Origin: Halanaerobium saccharolyticum
GTDB taxonomy: Bacteria > Bacillota > Halanaerobiia > Halanaerobiales > Halanaerobiaceae
DNA length: 64,000 nt
Assembly: GCF_004362045.1 (NCBI RefSeq)
Contig: NZ_SNWX01000002.1
Coordinates: forward strand, 1 to 64,000
Reading direction: 5' to 3'
Both the position numbers and the translations under genes were made by a program. This document shows, piece after piece, positions 6,730-57,125 of the stretch. The notes under the pieces were generated by a model that was not told where the DNA came from, did no database searches, and saw nothing but the letters and a program-made list of their open reading frames with translations. The stretch's first letter is position 1. Each line of letters starts with the position of its first letter.

Positions 6730-6828
6730 GGGAGTGTTTATGTTCAAGGTGAACATCCTGGACTTCAAATCCAGTGGCAGGCAGGTAGACCTGTCTGTGG
6801 TGGGTTCGATTCCCATACATTCCCGCCA
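6730..6828 (+). tRNA. selC: Selenocysteine tRNA (anticodon UCA)
   Basis: Inserts selenocysteine at UGA codons. The 99-nt gene has an 8-bp acceptor stem (GGGAGTGT with ACATTCCC, one G-U pair), which is diagnostic for bacterial tRNA-Sec. The anticodon loop CTTCAAA carries TCA at 6765-6767. There is a long variable arm, a normal GGTTCGATTCC T-arm, discriminator G and an encoded CCA. selA and selB follow directly. Confidence 0.97.
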
Positions 6829-46308: not shown

Positions 46309-46337
46309 TTGACTTTAAAAATACCATCTGTTAAGAT
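46309..46337 (+). promoter_or_regulatory. Promoter of the pur operon
   Basis: TTGACT (46309-46314), 17-base spacer, TAAGAT (46332-46337), about 30 bases before the first riboswitch aptamer. Confidence 0.7.
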
Positions 46338-46366
46338 TGAGTTGTAAATTAAAAATTGAATTTGTA

Positions 46367-46434
46367 CCTCATATAATAGTGGGAATATGGCCCACAAGTC
46401 TCTACCGAACACCGTAAATTGTTCGACTATGAGG
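46367..46434 (+). promoter_or_regulatory. Purine riboswitch aptamer, guanine type
   Basis: P1 is CCTCATA (46367-46373) with TATGAGG (46428-46434). The conserved core TATAAT, GTGGGAATATGGCCCAC, TCTCTACCGAACACCGTAAA and TTCGACTA matches the purine riboswitch consensus. The specificity base at the 3' junction is C (46427), the guanine form rather than U for adenine. It is the first half of a tandem leader with the PRPP aptamer. Confidence 0.93.
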
Positions 46435-46442
46435 GAAGTGTA

Positions 46443-46530
46443 CCTAGGTTTCCGCAGCTTTAGCTGGCTGGTCCGAGCGGTACAGATATTGCTATATATA
46501 TCACACCGAAGGGATAAAAGCCCAGGCGGG
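46443..46530 (+). promoter_or_regulatory. PRPP riboswitch aptamer (ykkC subtype)
   Basis: The ykkC-class conserved blocks are in order: CCTAGGTTTCCG (46443-46454), CTGGTCCGAG (46468-46477), and ACACCGAAGGGATAAAAG then CCC (46503-46523). The gene context (purine synthesis) and the guanine aptamer directly upstream identify the PRPP-sensing subtype rather than the guanidine type. Its 3' end overlaps the terminator stem, so PRPP binding should favour read-through. Confidence 0.88.
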
Positions 46531-46577
46531 GAGGTTCTACTCATTGAAAGTAGAGTTTCCCTACCTGGGCTATTTTT
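46519..46577 (+). terminator. Riboswitch-controlled terminator
   Basis: AGCCCAGG (46519-46526) pairs with CCTGGGCT (46564-46571). Inner pairing GGGGA/TTCCC and TCTACT/AGTAGA extends it, then ATTTTT. The 5' side lies within the PRPP aptamer, the expected switch geometry. Confidence 0.9.
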
Positions 46578-46595
46578 ATGCAAACATATTTAGGT

Positions 46596-46627
46596 ACCAG
46601 GTACAAATCGTCCGATTTGTACCTGGT
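46596..46627 (+). repeat. 15-bp perfect palindrome in the purD leader
   Basis: Bases 46596-46610 are the exact reverse complement of 46613-46627 with a 2-base centre. No U-tract follows. It lies between the riboswitch terminator and purD. Confidence 0.85.
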
Positions 46628-46666
46628 TAAAGTAAATGAATTCACAAAGGAAATGGAGTGGATAGA

Positions 46667-47937
46667 ATGAACATTCTTCTCATCGGTAGTGGTGGAAGAG
46701 AAAATGCACTTGCCTGGAAATTATCGCAGAGCAGTAGAGTAGATGAGTTATACATTGCAGCTGGTAATCCGGGTACTTCAGAATATGGTCAAAATCTTGA
46801 TTTTGATGAAAGTAATCAGGAGGCGCTATTAGAATTTGCCTTAAAAAAAAAATTGATATTACAGTAGTTGGCCCCGAGGCTCCGCTGGCAGCAGGAATTG
46901 TTGATTTTTTTGAAGAACACGGCCTTAAAGTTTTTGGTCCCAATCAGAGTGCTGCCCGACTTGAGAGTTCAAAAGCGTTTTCCAAGGAGTTAATGCAGAA
47001 ATATCAGATTCCAACTGCAGAATATGAGAGTTTTACAGAAGCAGATAAAGCAGTAGAGTATATAAAGCGAAAAGGAGCACCAATTGTAGTTAAGGCTTCC
47101 GGTCTGGCAGCAGGTAAAGGAGTTATTGTTGCTCAGACAGAGGCAGAAGCAGTAGAAGCGGTTGAGATAATTATGAAGGATGAAAAATTTGGAGATGCGG
47201 GAGAAAAAGTTGTTGTCGAAGAATTTTTAGAAGGAGAAGAGGCTACTATCCTGGCCTTTTGTGATGGTCAAACTGTTGTGCCAATGATTGCCTCCCAGGA
47301 TCACAAACCCGCCTATGATGGTGGTAAAGGTCCAAACACTGGTGGGATGGGAGCTTATGCACCAGCCCCAGTTGTGACCGAACAAATTAAGGCAGATTTT
47401 AAAACTGAAATTATGGAGCCTACACTGAAAGCTCTTCAGAGTGAAGGTCTAGAATTTAAGGGAATTATTTATTTTGGTTTGATGATTAAAGATGGAAAAG
47501 CTAAGGTTTTAGAATATAATGTTCGTTTTGGTGATCCAGAAGCACAGGTAGTATTACCTTTATTAGAGACAGATTTAGTAGATGTTATGGAAGCTGTAAT
47601 CGAAGGAAATTTAGATCAGCTTGAAATTCACTGGAAGCAGCAAAAAGCTCTCTGTGTTGTAATGGCGTCTGGTGGTTATCCAATAGAATACGAAAAGGGT
47701 AAAAAAATTACAGGAATCAAAGCAGCAGAGGCAGAAGAAGATATAATTGTTTTTCAGGCGGGAACCAGCTTAGAAAACGGAAAACTCCTGACAGACGGGG
47801 GTCGAGTCCTGGCAGTCACAGCCCTGGGAAGTAGTTTTCAGGAAGTAATTGATAAAGCTTATGCAGGAGTAGAAAAAATTGATTTTGCAGACTTTCAGAT
47901 TCGAAATGACATTGGGCAAAAAGCTCTGGAGAAATAA
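46667..47937 (+). CDS. purD: Phosphoribosylamine-glycine ligase, interrupted by a frameshift
   Basis: Second step of purine synthesis, an ATP-grasp enzyme. ATG 46667 follows GGAG. The N-terminal part (ILLIGSGGRENALAWKL) runs to the A10 run at 46843-46852, where the frame shifts and meets TAG. In the frame requiring one extra A (or two fewer), coding continues with DITVVGPEAPLAAGIVDFF, GLAAGKG, PNTGGMGAY and EYNVRFGDPEAQ to the stop at 47937. Total length would be about 423 residues, normal for PurD. Transcriptional slippage on the A run, a sequencing error, or a true mutation are all possible. Confidence 0.9.
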
Positions 47938-47958: not shown

Positions 47959-49122
47959 TTGAAGTTTAAAGATAAAACAAAGCAGAAAATTGGAATTATC
48001 GGTGGTGGTCAGCTGGGTAAGATGATGATTTTAGAGGCTAAAAAGATGGGTTTTTATGTTACAATTTTAGATCCGACAAAAAATTGTCCAGCCCACAGCA
48101 TTGCTGATCAGCATCTAGTTGCTGATTTTGATGACAGAGAAGCAATAAAGAAACTTGCTCAGCTGTCAGATTTAATAACCTATGAATTCGAGCATATTGA
48201 TGTTGAAGTCCTAAAAGAGCTGGAAGCTGAGGATTATAAGATTTATCCAACAGCCCGCAGCCTGGAAATTATTCAGAATAAATATCATCAAAAAAATGTC
48301 TTAAAACAGGATCGAATAGCTGTTCCTGATTTTAGGAAAGTCACCCTTCCAGAAGATATCAAAGAAGCTGCACAAGAGTTTGGCTATCCGCTGATGCTAA
48401 AAAGCTGTACCGGAGGTTATGACGGTAAAGGAAATGCCTTAATTGACAGTCAATCTGAGGTGGAAAATGCTTTTCAGGAATTAGGAGCAGGAAAAACTCC
48501 ACTGATGGTAGAAAAATATATTCCCTTTAAAAAGGAAATTTCAATCATTGCAGCCCGGGGACTAACTGGAGAAATGAAAGTTTATCCAGCTGGCGAAAAT
48601 GTTCATCGGGATAATATACTGTACGAGACCAGAGTTCCGGCAGAGATTTCTTCTGAGTTAGAGCAAAAAGCAGAAGAATTTGCTAAAGAAGTTCTTCAAG
48701 TTTTTGAAGGAATAGGAATTTTCTGTGTCGAAATGTTTGTTACAGAAGCTAATGAACTTTTAGTTAATGAAATTGCACCGAGACCTCATAATTCAGGTCA
48801 TTATACAATTGAAGGATGTGTAACTTCTCAGTTTGAACAGCATGTAAGGGCAATTACCGCTCTGCCGCTGGGAGATACTACTTTAGTCAGACCAGCAGTT
48901 ATGCGCAATATTCTGGGAAGTGGAGAAGAAGGAAAAGCTGAAGTAGTAGGACTTGAGCCGGCTCTCGCAGTAGAGGGAGTAAAAGTTCATATTTATCAGA
49001 AACAGATTTCTAGACCGGGACGTAAAATGGGACACCTGACAGTTACAGCAGAAAGTCTGGATAAAGCTGTTGAGCGGGCTTTAGAAGCCAGTCAGTTAAT
49101 TGAAATTAAGGGAAAAGATTAG
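47959..49122 (+). CDS. purK: 5-(carboxyamino)imidazole ribonucleotide synthase
   Basis: ATP-grasp enzyme, 387 residues. Motifs: [13 protein letters not shown] at the N terminus, EFEHIDV, YDGKGN and [17 protein letters not shown] start at 47959, 8 bases after GGGAGG. With purE it carboxylates AIR. Confidence 0.95.
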
Positions 49123-49145
49123 ATAAATTTGAGGAGGCTAAATTG

Positions 49146-49676
49146 ATGAAGCCAGAAGTAGGAATTATTATGGGTAGTGATTCAGATCTGCCTGTAATGA
49201 AAGAGGCAGCAGAAATTTTAGATCAATTTGAGGTGGAATATGAGCTGACAGTTGTTTCAGCCCATAGGACACCAGATAGACTATATAATTATGCAGAAAC
49301 TGCAGAAGAAAAAGGTTTGGATGTAATTATCGCTGGAGCCGGAGGTGCAGCTCATCTGCCGGGAATGGTGGCAGCAGTGACAGCTGTACCTGTAATTGGA
49401 GTCCCAGTTAAAACTTCAAAACTGAGTGGGCTTGATTCACTTTATTCCATAGTTCAGATGCCACCTGGAGTTCCAGTGGCCACAGTCGCGATCAATGGGG
49501 CCAAAAATGCGGCCTTACTGGCAGTCCAAATTTTAGCCCGCAGTGATGAAAAATTAAATAAAAAACAGAAAGAATATCGCAGAGAAATGAAAGAAAAAGT
49601 ACTGGATACAGCCGAAAAAGTAGAAGCTATGGGATATGCAGAATACCTTGAGAGGAGCGAAAAATTTGCAGACTAG
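49146..49676 (+). CDS. purE: N5-CAIR mutase
   Basis: 176 residues. Signatures are [21 protein letters not shown] and [14 protein letters not shown] at 49146 after GAGGAGG. Its end overlaps the purB start. Confidence 0.96.
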
Positions 49677-51078
49677 AGACATTTTTGCTAATATAAGTCC
49701 GCTTGATCACCGTTATTCAAGGAGAGAAAAAGATTTTGATCAGATTGGAAAATATCTTTCCGAAAATGCAACAATTACTTTTCAGGCAGAGGTAGAACTG
49801 GCCCTGGTTAAGGTGCTTGCCAGTAGAGGTATGGCACCGGAGAAGGCGCCCGCTGAAGTCGAAAAGGCAATAAAAGAATTAACTACAGAAGAGGTTTACG
49901 AAGAGGAAGCAAAGACTAAGCATAATATCAGAGCTTTAGTTAACTGCATTCAAAAAAAGGTCAGCAAAGAAACCCGCCCCTATATTCATTTTACAGCTAC
50001 TTCTTATGATATTGTAGATACAGCCAACTCCCTCCGCTATCAGAAGGCAGCTGCAGAATTAATAATACCTAAATTAAAAGAATTACATCAGAGCTGGGCC
50101 GAGATTGCCTTAAGAGAAAAGGACAGGGTTCAGATTGGAAGAACCCACGGTCAGCATGCAGTACCGGTAACTTTTGGTTTTACTATTGCCGAATATGTTG
50201 CCCGTCTGGGAGAAAGAATAGAAGAAGTTGAAGCTAAAGCAGACAGACTTGTCGGTAAATTTGCCGGAGCAGTTGGAGCCTATAATGCCAGCGGTATCTT
50301 TTTTGAAGATCCAGAGGAGTTTGAAAAGGAAGTCCTGGCTGAGCTTGGCTTAAAGCCGGGAGAGCATTCAACTCAAATAGTCCAGGCTGAGCCGATGACA
50401 GATTTTATTCACTCGCTTGTTTCAACATTTGGTGTGCTGGCAGCTTTCGCCGATGATATGCGCCAGCTGCAGCGATCTGAAATTGCAGAAATTGGTGAGC
50501 ATTTTGGCAAAGATCAGGTTGGTTCTTCAACCATGCCCCACAAGCGGAATCCGATTAACTATGAAAATGTAAAGAGTTTATGGAAGGCTTTTATGCCCCA
50601 GATGACTACAGTTTATATGGATCAGTTATCTGAACATCAAAGAGATCTGACCAATTCAGCTTCTTCCCGTTTTATTCCAGAGCTGATAACTGCTTTACTC
50701 TCAGCAGCAGCCAGATTGACCAGAGTCAGTTCCAAGATGGTAGTTGATCAGAAAAATATAAAAAATAATTTTGAACAGAACAAAAAAATGATTGTAGCAG
50801 AGCCCTTATATATTCTTTTAGCAGCAGCCGGTCATCCCGATGCCCATGAGGCAGTCCGGAAGCTGACTTTAAAAGCCCAGGCAACTGACTTATCACTGCG
50901 AGAACTTGTCGATCAGAGTCAGGAGCTGCAGGGATACTGGGAAAACTTTGCCGGTCATCAGAAAGAATTAATTTTAAATCCGGAAAAGTATACAGGTATT
51001 GCCGCGGAGAAAACAGAAAAGATAGTTAAAAACTGGCAGCAAAAATTTGATTATGATCTCAAAACGGAGGTTTTATAG
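49666..51078 (+). CDS. purB: Adenylosuccinate lyase
   Basis: Acts twice in purine synthesis, on SAICAR and on adenylosuccinate. About 470 residues; the fumarase-superfamily signature is [11 protein letters not shown], with the catalytic histidine region [11 protein letters not shown] at 49666 is chosen over ATG 49636, because GAGAGGAG lies just before the TTG and ATG 49636 has no such site. Confidence 0.95.
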
Positions 51079-51798
51079 ATGGATAAAAAAGAAATGATCT
51101 ATGAAGGTAAGGCCAAGCAGATTTTTAGCACAGATCAGGAAGGTCAGGTAATTGTGCATTTTAAAGATGATGCAACTGCCTTTGACGGTCAGAAAAAAGG
51201 TCAGATTGTAGAAAAAGGTAAGATTAATAATAAGATCAGCAACTTCTTTTTTGAGCTTTTAGAAGAAAAGGGAATCAAAACACATTTGATTGAGGAATTG
51301 AACGAGCGTGATTCTCTGGTCAAAAAAGTAGATATCATACCTCTGGAAGTTGTAATGCGCAATGTTGCAGCTGGAAGTCTGGCCAAAAGAATTGGCATGG
51401 AAGAGGGAGAAGCACTCAAACAGCCGGTTATTGAATTTTATTATAAAGATGATGAGCTCGGAGATCCTTTAATCAATGTTTCTCATATTGAACTTTTAGG
51501 CCTGGCCGGCAGAGAAGAGCTGGAAAGATTAATTGCTTTAGGTCATAAAATTAATGATATTCTGGTTAAATTCTTAAAAGAGCGGAATGTAGACCTTGTT
51601 GATTTCAAGCTGGAATTTGGAAAAACTGCAGAGGGAGAGATAATTCTGGCTGACGAAATCACCCCTGATACCTGCCGTTTCTGGGATAGTGAGACTAAAG
51701 AAAAGCTGGATAAGGATCGTTTTCGCCGTGATCTTGGTGATGTTGAGGAAGCTTATCATGAAATGTATAAGCGGATTACCGGCCAGGACTGGAAATAA
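51079..51798 (+). CDS. purC: SAICAR synthetase
   Basis: 239 residues. Signatures are YEGKAKQIF at the N terminus, LEVVMRNVAAGS and LADEITPDTCRFWD. It starts right after the purB stop; GGAGG lies in the purB end. Its last codons (ending with GACTGGAAATAA) form part of repeats found inverted downstream. Confidence 0.96.
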   Translation: MDKKEMIYEGKAKQIFSTDQEGQVIVHFKDDATAFDGQKKGQIVEKGKINNKISNFFFELLEEKGIKTHLIEELNERDSLVKKVDIIPLEVVMRNVAAGSLAKRIGMEEGEALKQPVIEFYYKDDELGDPLINVSHIELLGLAGREELERLIALGHKINDILVKFLKERNVDLVDFKLEFGKTAEGEIILADEITPDTCRFWDSETKEKLDKDRFRRDLGDVEEAYHEMYKRITGQDWK

Positions 51799-52100
51799 GC
51801 TAATCAGCTAATAATTAATAAGGATTCTATTTTATTAAAACAGAATATATCTCTTTCCATAGTAATTTTAAAATGAATCTAAGATTCTAATTTCGCCTTA
51901 AATTGGACTACCTTCCCGATCACAGCTTCCTGCTGTGCGGTCAGTTCAGGACATCGTGTCCTTCAGTCCAATTTAATACTCATTATCATCAAGATTCATT
52001 ATTTAAAATTTCTACTCTTTTGATATATTCTGTTTGGAATAAAATAGATCTCATTTAATAATATTTCTACCTGATTATCTTATTTCAGTCTGTCCGGATG
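51780..52100. repeat. Large imperfect palindrome (foldback) after purC
   Basis: From the last purC codons to about 52100 the two halves are mutually complementary with small gaps. Examples: GGAAATAAGCTAATCAG (51791-51807) against CTGATTATCTTATTTCAG (52071-52088), CAGAATATATC (51841-51851) against GATATATTCTG (52022-52032), TTTTAAAATGAATCT (51867-51881) against AAGATTCATTATTTAAAA (51991-52008), and TTAAATTGGACT (51898-51909) against AGTCCAATTTAA (51965-51976). The centre has two hairpins, CACAGC/GCTGTG and AGGACA/TGTCCT. No gene is visible in 51.80-52.40 kb. Confidence 0.85.
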
Positions 52101-52208
52101 TGTTAGAAGGATAACAATCATCAGAATTAAGTTGAATTAGAATAAAACTATAGAGTCGTTAAATATATTCTTCTTTCAAAAAATAAATATAAACATAACT
52201 TTATAGAA

Positions 52209-52301
52209 GCTTATTTCCAGTCTGGCGGTAGTTGGATCAGGGATAAGAATAATTTTAAAATGAATCTAAAATTCTAATTTCGCCTTAAATTGGACTACCT
52301 T
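52209..52301. repeat. Second, partial copies of the purC-downstream repeat
   Basis: A 52-base segment at 52250-52301 repeats 51863-51914 with one mismatch. Just before it, 52209-52222 is the exact reverse complement of the 14 bases at the purC end (51787-51800). GGCGGTAGTTGGAT occurs at 52224 and 52304. Confidence 0.85.
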
Positions 52302-52404
52302 TCGGCGGTAGTTGGATTATGGTGTCAGTAATTTTAACCGCTAGTTAGATTAGGGAGAAAAATTAAATTCAAATTATGTTTTAGCATTAAAGGGAGGAAA
52401 ATTG

Positions 52405-53880
52405 ATGAGAGAAAGTTGTAATTTCTCTAAGCAAAAAAATAGAGTTAAGCAGAGTTCTAATGATCTAAAATTGACTCAGGCTGAGCTGAATGAAGATAAA
52501 ATGAGTGAAGAATGTGGAGTTTTTGGCATTTTTAATGCTGATGGTGAGAGCAGTGCAGCAGAATTAACCTATCTTGGCTTGATTGCCCTGCAGCACCGGG
52601 GCCAGGAAAGTGCAGGCATCTGTGCCAATCATCAGGGAGAATTTAATCTGCATAAGAGCATGGGCCTGGTAGAAAGTGCTTTTGAAAAAGAAGATATTAA
52701 GAACTTAAAAGGTGAAATGGCAATCGGTCATGTTCGTTATTCTACCAGTGGTTCCAGTAAGCTTGCCAATGCTCAACCAATTTTAATTAACAGTATGAAA
52801 GGTGATCTGGCTCTGGCCCATAATGGTAATCTGGCCAATGGAGCAGAACTTAGAAACAATCTGGAAAGCAACGGTTCAATTTTTCATTCTACTCTAGATA
52901 CAGAAGTAATTGCTCACCTGGTAGCCCGCTCTTTTGAAGATGATATTGTGGAAGCTTTAATCCAGAGCCTGCATCAGTTAAAAGGGGGATTTTCGCTGGT
53001 GGCAATGACTAAAGATGAGCTGGTTGCTATTCGTGATCCCCGGGGTTTTAGACCGCTTTCGATCGGGAAACTGGATAACAGCTACATTGTAGCCTCCGAA
53101 AGCTGTGCTTTTGATATTATTGGAGCTGAATTTGTGCGTGATGTTAATCCAGGTGAAGTTGTGATAATTGATGAAGATGGAATTAAAAGCAGACGCTATA
53201 CCGGTGAAAGCGAGACCAGTCTCTGTGTTTTTGAATATATTTACTTTGCCCGACCAGACAGCAATATTTCCGGTCAAAATGTTTTACTTGCCAGAAAAGA
53301 AATGGGGAAACAGCTGGCCCGGGAGATGGATGTTGAAGCTGATATTGTAGTACCAGTACCTGATTCGGGAATTGCAGCAGCCTTAGGTTTTGCTGAAGAA
53401 TCGGGCATCCCGTATGCTCAGGGTATTTTGAGAAACCGTTATATGGGAAGGACTTTTATTCAGCCGACTCAGGAGATCAGGGATTTAAAAGTCAGATTAA
53501 AGCTATCACCAATTAAAGAAATTATTAAAGATAAAAAAGTGATTTTAATAGATGATTCAATTGTCAGAGGAACAACCAGTAAACAGATTATTGGGCGAAT
53601 TAAGGAAGCAGGAGCGAAAGAGGTTCATATGGCAATTTCCTCACCACCTGTAGAACACCCCTGCTATTTTGGGCTTGATACTTCACGCCGGCAGGAACTA
53701 ATCGCCAGCAGTAATTCTGTAGAAGAAATTAGTGAACGTATCGGAGCTGACAGCCTTTATTACTTAAGCAAGGAAGGAATGCTCCAGTCAATTAAAACTG
53801 AGGTTGAACTTGGTTTCTGTACCGCCTGTTTTGATGGAGATTATCCAATATCCAGCCGCTACTTAAGTGAGGAGGATTAA
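52405..53880 (+). CDS. purF: Amidophosphoribosyltransferase
   Basis: First step of purine synthesis, 491 residues from ATG 52405 after GGGAGG. The nucleophile cysteine in SEECGVFGIF is preceded by about 36 residues, which would be a propeptide longer than usual; a later start at 52501 would leave only four residues. Cluster-type cysteines (SLCVFEY, HPCYFG, GFCTACF) suggest the 4Fe-4S class as in Bacillus. The PRPP site is ILIDDSIVRGTT. Confidence 0.96.
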   Translation: MRESCNFSKQKNRVKQSSNDLKLTQAELNEDKMSEECGVFGIFNADGESSAAELTYLGLIALQHRGQESAGICANHQGEFNLHKSMGLVESAFEKEDIKNLKGEMAIGHVRYSTSGSSKLANAQPILINSMKGDLALAHNGNLANGAELRNNLESNGSIFHSTLDTEVIAHLVARSFEDDIVEALIQSLHQLKGGFSLVAMTKDELVAIRDPRGFRPLSIGKLDNSYIVASESCAFDIIGAEFVRDVNPGEVVIIDEDGIKSRRYTGESETSLCVFEYIYFARPDSNISGQNVLLARKEMGKQLAREMDVEADIVVPVPDSGIAAALGFAEESGIPYAQGILRNRYMGRTFIQPTQEIRDLKVRLKLSPIKEIIKDKKVILIDDSIVRGTTSKQIIGRIKEAGAKEVHMAISSPPVEHPCYFGLDTSRRQELIASSNSVEEISERIGADSLYYLSKEGMLQSIKTEVELGFCTACFDGDYPISSRYLSEED

Positions 53881-53882
53881 TT

Positions 53883-54917
53883 ATGGGTTTAGATTACAAA
53901 AAAGCTGGAGTCGATATTGATGCCGGCAATCAGGCAGTTGAACTGATTAAAGAGGATGTGCAGTCAACTTTTGGTCCGGAAGTAATGACCGGACTGGGAG
54001 GTTTTGGTGGGCTTTTTAAGCCTGACTTAAGCAATTATCAGAATCCGGTTTTAGTTTCAGGTACAGACGGAGTGGGAACAAAGCTCAAACTGGCTTTTAA
54101 ACTGGATCTTCACAATACAATTGGCATTGATTTAGTAGCGATGTCAGTTAATGATATACTGGCTCAGGGAGCACAACCCCTATTTTTTCTCGACTATCTA
54201 GCAGCTGGCAAGCTGGAGCCGGAAAAAACAGCGGAGATTGTAAAAGGAATTGCTTCCGGCTGTAAAGAAGCTGGAGCAGCTTTAATTGGTGGTGAAACTG
54301 CAGAAATGGCAGGCTTTTATCAGCCAGGAGAATATGATCTGGCAGGTTTTGCAGTTGGCATTGTGGACCAGGATCAGATTATCACCGGAGCTGAGATTAA
54401 AGCTGGTGATTTAGTTATCGGTCTTAAATCAGATGGTCTGCACAGCAATGGTTTTACCCTGGCTCGAGCAGCACTTTTTGAGAGAGCGGGTTTTGACTAT
54501 ACTGCAGAAGTTGAGGGACTGGAAAAGAATTTAGGAGAAGAATTACTTAAACCGACCAGGATTTATGTAAAAACTGTGCTGGCACTGCTCAAGCAATTTA
54601 AGATTAAAGGAATTGCTCATATTACAGGTGGAGGCCTAATCGAAAATCTACCGCGTATTCTGCCAGAAGGCTTAAAAGCTGAAATCAAAAAAGACAGCTG
54701 GCAGCCACAGCAAATCTTTGAGCTAATTCAGGAAGCAGGAGAGATTGCAGAAAAAGAAATGTACAGAACCTTTAATATGGGAATCGGAATGACCTTAGTT
54801 ATAGATAAAGCTGATAAAGATCAAATACTTAAAGAACTTGCAGAAATGGGAGAAGAGGCCTGTCTGATTGGTGAAATAAAAGCAGGAGCTGCAGATACAT
54901 CTCTCGAAATAAAATAA
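53883..54917 (+). CDS. purM: Phosphoribosylformylglycinamidine cyclo-ligase (AIR synthetase)
   Basis: 344 residues. Signatures are YKKAGVDIDAGN at the N terminus, VSGTDGVGTKLKLA and IGGETAEMAGFY. It begins 2 bases after purF. Confidence 0.97.
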   Translation: MGLDYKKAGVDIDAGNQAVELIKEDVQSTFGPEVMTGLGGFGGLFKPDLSNYQNPVLVSGTDGVGTKLKLAFKLDLHNTIGIDLVAMSVNDILAQGAQPLFFLDYLAAGKLEPEKTAEIVKGIASGCKEAGAALIGGETAEMAGFYQPGEYDLAGFAVGIVDQDQIITGAEIKAGDLVIGLKSDGLHSNGFTLARAALFERAGFDYTAEVEGLEKNLGEELLKPTRIYVKTVLALLKQFKIKGIAHITGGGLIENLPRILPEGLKAEIKKDSWQPQQIFELIQEAGEIAEKEMYRTFNMGIGMTLVIDKADKDQILKELAEMGEEACLIGEIKAGAADTSLEIK

Positions 54918-54930
54918 AGAAGGTGTAAAA

Positions 54931-55545
54931 ATGCTTAAGATAGCTGTTTTTGCCTCAGGCAGAGGCTCAAATTTTCAATCAATTATTGACAGTATAAAAA
55001 GTGGAGCCATTCCGGCCGAAGTTAAACTCTTAATCAGTGATAACCAGGATGCTGGTGCTTTAAAGCGAGCAGAACGCGAGGATATAGAGCATCTGTTTAT
55101 TGATCCAGCTCATTTTGAAACAAAAGCTGATTACGAAAAAGAACTAATTGGACTCTTAAAAAATGCAGGAGTCGAACTTGTAGTTCTGGCAGGATATATG
55201 CGGATTCTCTCCCCACTTTTTGTTAAAGAATTTAAAAACCAGATTATCAATATTCATCCTTCACTCTTACCTGCTTTTAAGGGGCTGGATGCTCAAAAAC
55301 AGGCAGTAGATTATGGAGTTAAATACAGCGGCTGTACCGTGCACTTTGTGGATCAGGGTATGGATACCGGCCCAATTATCAAACAGGCAGTAGTCGATGT
55401 TAAAGATGATGACAGTGCTGATGATCTGGCAGCAAGGATTTTAAAAGAAGAACATAGAATTTATCCTGAGGCAGTCAAATTAATTGCAGAAGGAAAGATT
55501 AAAATTGAAGGACGGAAAGTTAAAATTCTAAAGGAGGAAAAATAA
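54931..55545 (+). CDS. purN: Phosphoribosylglycinamide formyltransferase
   Basis: 204 residues, folate-dependent. Signatures are VFASGRGSNFQSIID, the catalytic NIHPSLLPAFKG and GCTVHFVD. AGAAGGTG precedes the ATG. Confidence 0.96.
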   Translation: MLKIAVFASGRGSNFQSIIDSIKSGAIPAEVKLLISDNQDAGALKRAEREDIEHLFIDPAHFETKADYEKELIGLLKNAGVELVVLAGYMRILSPLFVKEFKNQIINIHPSLLPAFKGLDAQKQAVDYGVKYSGCTVHFVDQGMDTGPIIKQAVVDVKDDDSADDLAARILKEEHRIYPEAVKLIAEGKIKIEGRKVKILKEEK

Positions 55546-55547
55546 CT

Positions 55548-57125
55548 TTGTCTAAAATTAAAAGAGCGTTGATCAGTGTTTCAAATAAGGAAGGTATTGT
55601 AGATTTTGCGAAGGGTTTAAAAGAATTTGGAGTAGAGATAATTTCAACCGGTGGGACAGGCCGGATGTTAAAAGAAAATGACGTCGAAGTTACAGACATT
55701 GATGAGGTGACTAATTTTCCAGAAATGATGGATGGAAGAGTTAAGACTTTACATCCTGCAGTTCACGGCGGTATTTTAGCAGTTAGAGATAATGAGCAGC
55801 ATTTAAAAGAAATTGAAGCTCAGGATATTGAGCCAATTGATCTTGTTGTCTGTAATCTCTATCCATTTGCCGAAACAATTGCTAAAGAAGATGTAACTTT
55901 AGCAGAAGCAATAGAAAATATTGATATTGGTGGCCCGACAATGATTCGCTCAGCTGCCAAAAATAACAATGATGTAGCAGTTGTAGTTGATCCGGCTGAT
56001 TATGACAAGCTTCTGGCTGAAATGAAGGTGGGCAGTGGCGGCTTAACTAAAACTCAAAAATTAAAGCTTGCCTACAAGGCTTTCCACCATACTGCAGAAT
56101 ATGATCAGAGAATTCAGAAGTACCTGGGAGAAATTGTGCTGGATGATGATGAAAAAGAAGAAATGCCGGAGACACTGCTGGACCGTTATGATAAAAAAGA
56201 AGAACTCCGCTATGGCGAAAACCCACATCAGAAGGCAGCTTTTTACTTAGAAGCAGAACAGAATGAACCATCAATTTCTACTGCCGAGCAGCTGCACGGT
56301 AAGGGAATGTCTTATAATAACATCAACGATACAGATGGGGCTTTAGAGCTGATCAAAGAATTTACAGCTAAACCAGCAGCAGCAGTAATTAAACATGCCA
56401 ACCCCTGTGGAATAGCGACTGCTGATAATTTAAAAGAGGCATTTATTAATGCCCATGCCGGTGATCCCTTATCTGCCTTTGGCTCGATTGTGGCAGCCAA
56501 TAGAAAAATTGATGCCGGAACAGCTAAAGAAATTGCTGATCAGGATAAATTTATTGAAGTGGTAATTGCACCGGATTATGAAGCTGAAGCTTTGGATATT
56601 TTAAGAGAACGTTCTGATAAAATGAGAATTCTAAAAACCGGGGAACTTTCTATTAATCGGGAAAAGCCAGGTTACAGCATGAAAAAGGTAACAGGTGGAC
56701 TTTTAGTACAGGACAGAGATTTAGCTCAAACTACTGCTGAAGATCTGGAAGTAGTAACCGAAAAAGCTCCAACTGAAGAGCAGATTGAGGATTTACTATT
56801 TTCCTGGAAGGTAGTAAAACACGTTAAATCAAATGCGATTGTAATGGCTAAAGATGAGATGGTAGTTGGTGTTGGTGCCGGGCAGATGAGTCGAGTTGAT
56901 TCGATGATTATTGCCGGCCGTAAAGCTGAAGGCCGTCAGGAAGGCGGAGTTGTGGCCTCAGATGCATTTTTCCCTTTCCCGGATGCTGTAGAAAAGGCAG
57001 CAGAGCTGGGTATTAAAGCAATTATTCAGCCCGGTGGTTCAATCCGTGATGATCAGGTTATAGAGGCCTGCGATGAACTTGGAATTGCAATGGTCTTTAC
57101 CGGTAAAAGACACTTTAGACATTAA
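55548..57125 (+). CDS. purH: Bifunctional AICAR formyltransferase / IMP cyclohydrolase
   Basis: Last two steps to IMP, 525 residues. The N-terminal cyclohydrolase has ISVSNKEGIVDFA and DGRVKTLHP; the formyltransferase has RYGENPHQKAAFY and KHANPCGIA. TTG start at 55548 after AAGGAGG. Confidence 0.97.
   Translation: MSKIKRALISVSNKEGIVDFAKGLKEFGVEIISTGGTGRMLKENDVEVTDIDEVTNFPEMMDGRVKTLHPAVHGGILAVRDNEQHLKEIEAQDIEPIDLVVCNLYPFAETIAKEDVTLAEAIENIDIGGPTMIRSAAKNNNDVAVVVDPADYDKLLAEMKVGSGGLTKTQKLKLAYKAFHHTAEYDQRIQKYLGEIVLDDDEKEEMPETLLDRYDKKEELRYGENPHQKAAFYLEAEQNEPSISTAEQLHGKGMSYNNINDTDGALELIKEFTAKPAAAVIKHANPCGIATADNLKEAFINAHAGDPLSAFGSIVAANRKIDAGTAKEIADQDKFIEVVIAPDYEAEALDILRERSDKMRILKTGELSINREKPGYSMKKVTGGLLVQDRDLAQTTAEDLEVVTEKAPTEEQIEDLLFSWKVVKHVKSNAIVMAKDEMVVGVGAGQMSRVDSMIIAGRKAEGRQEGGVVASDAFFPFPDAVEKAAELGIKAIIQPGGSIRDDQVIEACDELGIAMVFTGKRHFRH

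Follow-up and report, generated by a model that had tools for sequence, protein, structure and literature searches.

The leader RNA of the purine biosynthesis operon in Halanaerobium saccharolyticum very probably is a tandem guanine-PRPP riboswitch, which would control transcription of purD through purH via one shared terminator, and its two aptamers are probably coupled by strand exchange. Within the window, i.e. the whole 64-kb stretch of DNA that was analysed, the tandem pattern occurs once, compared with no occurrence in 100 shuffles. The leader extends from 46309 to 46666 on the plus strand and contains, in this order, a promoter-like sequence, the guanine aptamer, a ykkC aptamer, the terminator, and a palindrome, followed by purD. 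Its features and those of the operon are:

46309..46337, plus strand: likely sigma-70-type promoter (TTGACT, 17-nt spacer, TAAGAT; extended -10 TG at 46329-46330)
46349..46449, plus strand: purine (guanine) riboswitch aptamer, match to RF00167 (84 bits against a gathering threshold of 37, E 1.1e-13, model positions 1-102)
46367..46372, plus strand: 5' strand of guanine aptamer P1, CCUCAU, pairing with 46429-46434
46427, plus strand: C at the specificity nucleotide of the purine aptamer (sequence in the Rfam alignment)
46429..46437, plus strand: shared strand B, AUGAGGGAA, comprising the guanine P1 3' strand (46429-46434) and the PRPP P0 5' strand (46429-46437)
46433..46530, plus strand: ykkC-class aptamer, match to RF00442 (57.7 bits against a gathering threshold of 63, E 8.4e-10), assigned to subtype 2b / PRPP
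46435..46439, plus strand: 5-nt spacer separating the P1 stems of the two aptamers, from the sequence
46437-46438, plus strand: residues in the spacer equivalent to the PRPP contacts A5/G6 (numbering inferred)
46440-46444/46479-46483, plus strand: base pairs of ykkC aptamer P1
46478, plus strand: pyrimidine C at the C49 equivalent, where guanidine-I aptamers have A (criterion from PMC6031431)
46504, plus strand: C equivalent to C75, the partner of G96 (PMC6031431)
46519..46580, plus strand: shared intrinsic terminator with a 22-bp stem (46519-46541/46549-46571), loop 46542-46548, and tail AUUUUUAUG
46525, plus strand: G equivalent to G96, indicating PRPP rather than ppGpp specificity (sequence; PMC6031431)
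46535..46544, plus strand: strand C, the P0 3' strand, UUCU[A]CUCAU with A46539 bulged, pairing with 46429-46437 and overlapping the terminator 5' strand
46667..47937, plus strand: purD, the first operon gene (TIGR00877, 398.5 bits over 46993-47937)
47959..57125, plus strand: purK, purE, purB, purC, purF, purM, purN, and purH (best NCBIfam matches; purB narrowly below its cut-off)

The sequence-only reading had proposed a guanine-type purine aptamer with C at the specificity position, and the Rfam search (RF00167, 84 bits) and C46427 bear this out. This C is the equivalent of C74 in xpt, the ligand-pairing position, as in the guanine rather than the adenine type. The aptamer core is canonical in sequence, and together with the specificity C it supports the prediction of guanine as the first ligand. 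Singlet guanine riboswitches (RF00167) share this canonical core; unlike them, the guanine aptamer of the leader has no terminator of its own and is proposed to act through the PRPP aptamer. The same genome contains a second purine aptamer (L002, 1519-1590; C2:232284-232383) before an NCS2-type permease, in which the J2/3 position corresponding to C53 carries G rather than C and one loop reads CCGAUAA. The same is seen in several other Halanaerobium genomes, with U in another (G001), and the L002 aptamer is a possible variant guanine aptamer.

The ykkC match covers all 107 model positions, its E-value applying to a search of 451 bases. RF00442 is the guanidine-I family, and Rfam alone leaves the ligand of this aptamer unassigned; no PRPP-specific family was among the Rfam 15 matches. 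A score below the gathering threshold is expected of a divergent ykkC subtype and fits subtype 2. Because C46478 and G46525 occupy positions that separate the subtypes, PRPP is well supported by sequence as the second ligand. All 112 tandem rows scored have G at position 96; these are the rows that allowed the motif to be placed, and some of them represent the same locus twice. The single change G96A switches the PRPP aptamer to ppGpp, with a specificity shift of about 40,000-fold (Knappenberger et al., 2018, PMC6031431). The ykkC numbering used here was carried over by the constant spacing between C75 and G96 rather than from an alignment with the crystal sequence. Counted by spacing in this way, the A101 equivalent, which is a pyrophosphate contact, is G in H. 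saccharolyticum and in many relatives.

With Guanidine-I (RF00442) as the sole matching Rfam family, and with ykkC subtypes that are very alike and have their overall fold in common, the second aptamer might instead sense guanidine (guanidine-I, subtype 1) or ppGpp (subtype 2a). The nucleotides at positions 49 and 96 and the P0 tails distinguish the leader from both groups, however. It falls outside guanidine-I by its score (57.7 versus 63 bits) and by C instead of A at position 49, and the P0 tails, which guanidine-I aptamers lack, are present and co-vary here. Position 96 is G, in contrast to ppGpp aptamers, which are without G at this site, and the gene neighbourhood of purine synthesis and salvage also speaks against either ligand. 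A response to ppGpp or guanidine in place of PRPP thus appears highly improbable. The tandem identity of guanine plus PRPP (ykkC subtype 2b), already assigned by the sequence-only reading, is upheld by the diagnostic nucleotides at 49 and 96 and by the comparative data, whereas the gap of 8 bases between the aptamers that it gave has to be corrected to the 5 nt between the P1 stems.

That such tandems are already established was also correctly stated: the class has been published and validated by experiment (Sherlock et al., 2018, eLife 7:e33908, PMC5912903), with 127 tandems reported in 2018 (PMC5912903) and 192 in 2022 (PMC9481103). The arrangement in H. saccharolyticum matches this class in the adjacency of the aptamers, the 5-nt spacer (published gap between the P1 stems, 5-7 nt; PMC5912903), the subtype nucleotides, P0, the shared terminator, and the purine genes. 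The codA tandem of B. megaterium (PMC5912903) likewise consists of a guanine aptamer, a 5-7-nt spacer, and a subtype 2b aptamer with a single shared terminator and purine genes downstream; the present tandem differs in its Halanaerobium host and purD-first operon, and in being predicted from sequence. The PRPP riboswitch of Thermoanaerobacter mathranii, which is part of a tandem (PDB 6CK5; Knappenberger et al., 2018, PMC6031431), has C75, G96, and the P0 tails in common with it. Unlike the T. mathranii riboswitch, the Halanaerobium leader has G at the A101 equivalent and one bulged A in P0. Among four papers naming both Halanaerobium and riboswitches, none was on this tandem according to title and abstract.

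The promoter call rests on conservation across relatives and not on the promoter scan, which found 3 promoters versus 1.9 expected and by itself is not above chance. In 15 Halanaerobium/Halanaerobiales rows, the sequence preceding the tandem retains TTGAC and the CTG-TTA-AT core. Downstream of the terminator, the predicted pur operon was confirmed, with purD first at 46667 and then K-E-B-C-F-M-N-H. In this assembly an A10 run (46843-46852) disrupts the purD frame, whereas Halanaerobium relatives have TTAAAAGAAAAAATTG or a similar sequence at this site and an intact frame. The frameshift may result from a sequencing error in the homopolymer or from a real mutation, or the frame may be rescued by polymerase slippage. 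A palindromic REP-like repeat lies between the terminator and purD (46583-46650); it has 26 matches, counting both strands, which fall at about 16 genomic sites and have 76-97% identity. The gap of 600 nt between purC and purF (51799-52401) is without a convincing ORF. A purL-like gene (L151, C40:11700-13643), which forms one long frame of about 1284 amino acids, lies at a distance from the pur operon and is not close to either of the genome's two purine aptamers. Elsewhere in the window, at 6730-6824, there is a selenocysteine tRNA (RF01852, 67.8 bits).

The terminator hairpin (46519-46571) was missed by a simple terminator scan and found by direct folding, with -34.7 kcal/mol versus -16.0 +/- 3.2 kcal/mol in shuffles (z -5.9). 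Its stem begins inside the ykkC aptamer and overlaps the P3 and P0 strands of the latter, and stem and tail are matched in Halanaerobium relatives. The overlap of the stem (46519-46571) with the RF00442 match, which ends at 46530, agrees with the earlier proposal that the 3' end of the ykkC aptamer forms the 5' side of a strong terminator. In the PRPP crystal structure, the P0 helix is built from the 5' and 3' tails of the aptamer (PMC6031431); in the window, P0 has 9 pairs and one bulge. Because 46429-46434 is common to P1 and P0, and 46535-46544 lies largely in the terminator, three pairings compete: P1, P0, and the terminator. Only the listed pairs of P1, P0, and PRPP-P1 were kept from the fold comparison, whose nearest-neighbour energies take no account of ligand or tertiary contacts. 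An energy ranking of liganded-like states was dropped, its P3 pairs being in the wrong register.

Switching is thus proposed to be a three-way strand competition between guanine P1, PRPP P0, and the terminator. Guanine would stabilise P1 (46367-46372 with 46429-46434) and thereby withdraw the P0 5' strand from the PRPP aptamer; with P0 lost, the strand 46535-46544 would be free to enter the terminator and the operon would be turned off. PRPP, with Mg2+, would stabilise P0 (46429-46437 with 46535-46544) and P3, so that the terminator 5' strand is occupied and the operon stays on even in the presence of guanine. P0 and guanine P1 were predicted to be mutually exclusive in the T. mathranii model, where P3 likewise overlaps with the expression platform (Knappenberger et al., PMC6031431). 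Sherlock et al. left the tandem mechanism open between alternative pairing and a steric clash (PMC5912903), and according to a 2022 review the structural changes behind the tandem gate are yet to be established (PMC9481103).

Strand sharing was examined by comparing strand B (P1 3' strand plus spacer) and strand C (P0 3' strand) from 78 distinct tandems. Strands from the same tandem pair at -9.1 kcal/mol, versus -7.6 kcal/mol for swapped strands (z -7), and the P1-overlapping part alone gave p values of 4.5e-4 and <5e-5 within two spacer-length groups. With the tandems collapsed into 55 taxon groups, the observed value was reached by 0 permutations (30 resamplings of 2000), both for full P0 and for the P1 overlap alone, a procedure that reduces the influence of shared ancestry among the tandems without removing it entirely. 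P0 takes up at least 4 of the 6 nucleotides of the P1 3' strand in all 78 tandems. In 56 of 77 tandems the predicted terminator hairpin spans 10 or more of the 18 C-strand positions, and in the other 21 it spans fewer than 10. The A-run of the spacer and the U-run of strand C agree in length, with 2/2 in 17 tandems, 3/3 in 51 (the U-run of 3 in L098 was read by eye), and 4/4 in one (L097), and the remaining 9 have GGAA/UUUC with a G-U wobble. The 2/2 class consists of Halanaerobiales-type tandems and two from Ktedonobacteria; relative to most tandems, an A/U pair is co-deleted in the Halanaerobiales P0. Compensating changes are found at L017 (GAA/UUC in place of GAG/CUC), L097 (AAAA/UUUU in place of GAAA/UUUC), and L098 (GUG/CAU in place of GAG/CUC).

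The antagonism of the aptamers could also arise because neighbouring folds crowd each other sterically, without any shared strand, which is the alternative put forward by Sherlock et al. (PMC5912903) and is compatible with the constant short spacer as well. Crowding would not need the P1 3' strand to be complementary to the terminator 5' strand, yet this complementarity is kept by compensating changes and joint insertions or deletions, and we regard crowding as quite unlikely. On balance, strand exchange would seem to be the mechanism of the gate, with its pairings under selection not only throughout Bacillota but also in Chloroflexota (Ktedonobacteria), which lie outside the Firmicutes range of 2018.

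Ligand binding, the direction of each response, and the logic of the Halanaerobium gate are predicted by analogy with the published class. Tandems of this class function as IMPLY gates, which are on by default and off only with guanine bound and no PRPP, and in which PRPP overrides guanine (PMC5912903; PMC9481103). The sole tandem tested, B. megaterium codA, approximates IMPLY, and guanine raises its termination above the unliganded level (PMC5912903). By homology, IMPLY is favoured for the Halanaerobium tandem too, with an uncertain default in the absence of ligands because the terminator is very stable. The sequence-only reading had expected expression at high PRPP and low guanine (PRPP AND NOT guanine), and in this it departs from the published gate. 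Such logic, with the same aptamers and ligands but the operon off without PRPP, would be permitted by the very stable terminator and an unoccupied PRPP aptamer, and the singlet PRPP riboswitch is indeed off without its ligand (PMC5912903). The codA tandem has the same architecture and approximates IMPLY, however, and an AND NOT gate is considered unlikely.

The tandem of H. saccharolyticum is an ordinary instance, as each of the 12 Halanaerobium genomes examined carries such a tandem; the ykkC match was found in 11 of them with a strict filter and in the twelfth (G007) by a less strict search. Across 61 relatives, a coordinate comparison placed 42 of 42 ykkC matches directly downstream of a purine aptamer match. 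In Halanaerobium the next gene is purD wherever the downstream gene is within reach. An exact-pattern scan of 84,980 species genomes yielded 104 tandem loci, in Halanaerobiales, Sporomusaceae, Brevibacillus, Alicyclobacillus, Tumebacillus, Dethiobacter, and others. Genes that follow the other loci code for NCS2-type permeases or are xpt, purL, and other purine genes, some of these names (those without a library scan) being a reading of the protein sequence. The class has been described as distributed in Firmicutes (Sherlock et al., 2018, PMC5912903). Six loci with the tandem pattern (L006, L027, L050, L058, L070, and L082) are labelled Ktedonobacteria/Ktedonobacterales or Chloroflexi; five have both Rfam matches, and L058 has the purine match and the pattern. 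Where the downstream genes were read, they encode purine/cytosine-type permeases, and two of the proteins belong to the Xan_ur_permease and Transp_cyt_pur transporter families. The tandem thus appears to occur in Chloroflexota, outside the published range, with misbinning as a reservation because all six records are metagenome-assembled; the one that is a complete chromosome (CP126532.1) is exempt from it.

The Halanaerobium instance adds one example to a known class, and the related loci matter more, for the mechanism. What is new here is modest, namely comparative support for a switching mechanism that the 2022 review calls unestablished (PMC9481103). The co-varying strands of P1, P0, and the terminator suggest a specific strand-exchange model, which could be tested with a few compensatory mutants.
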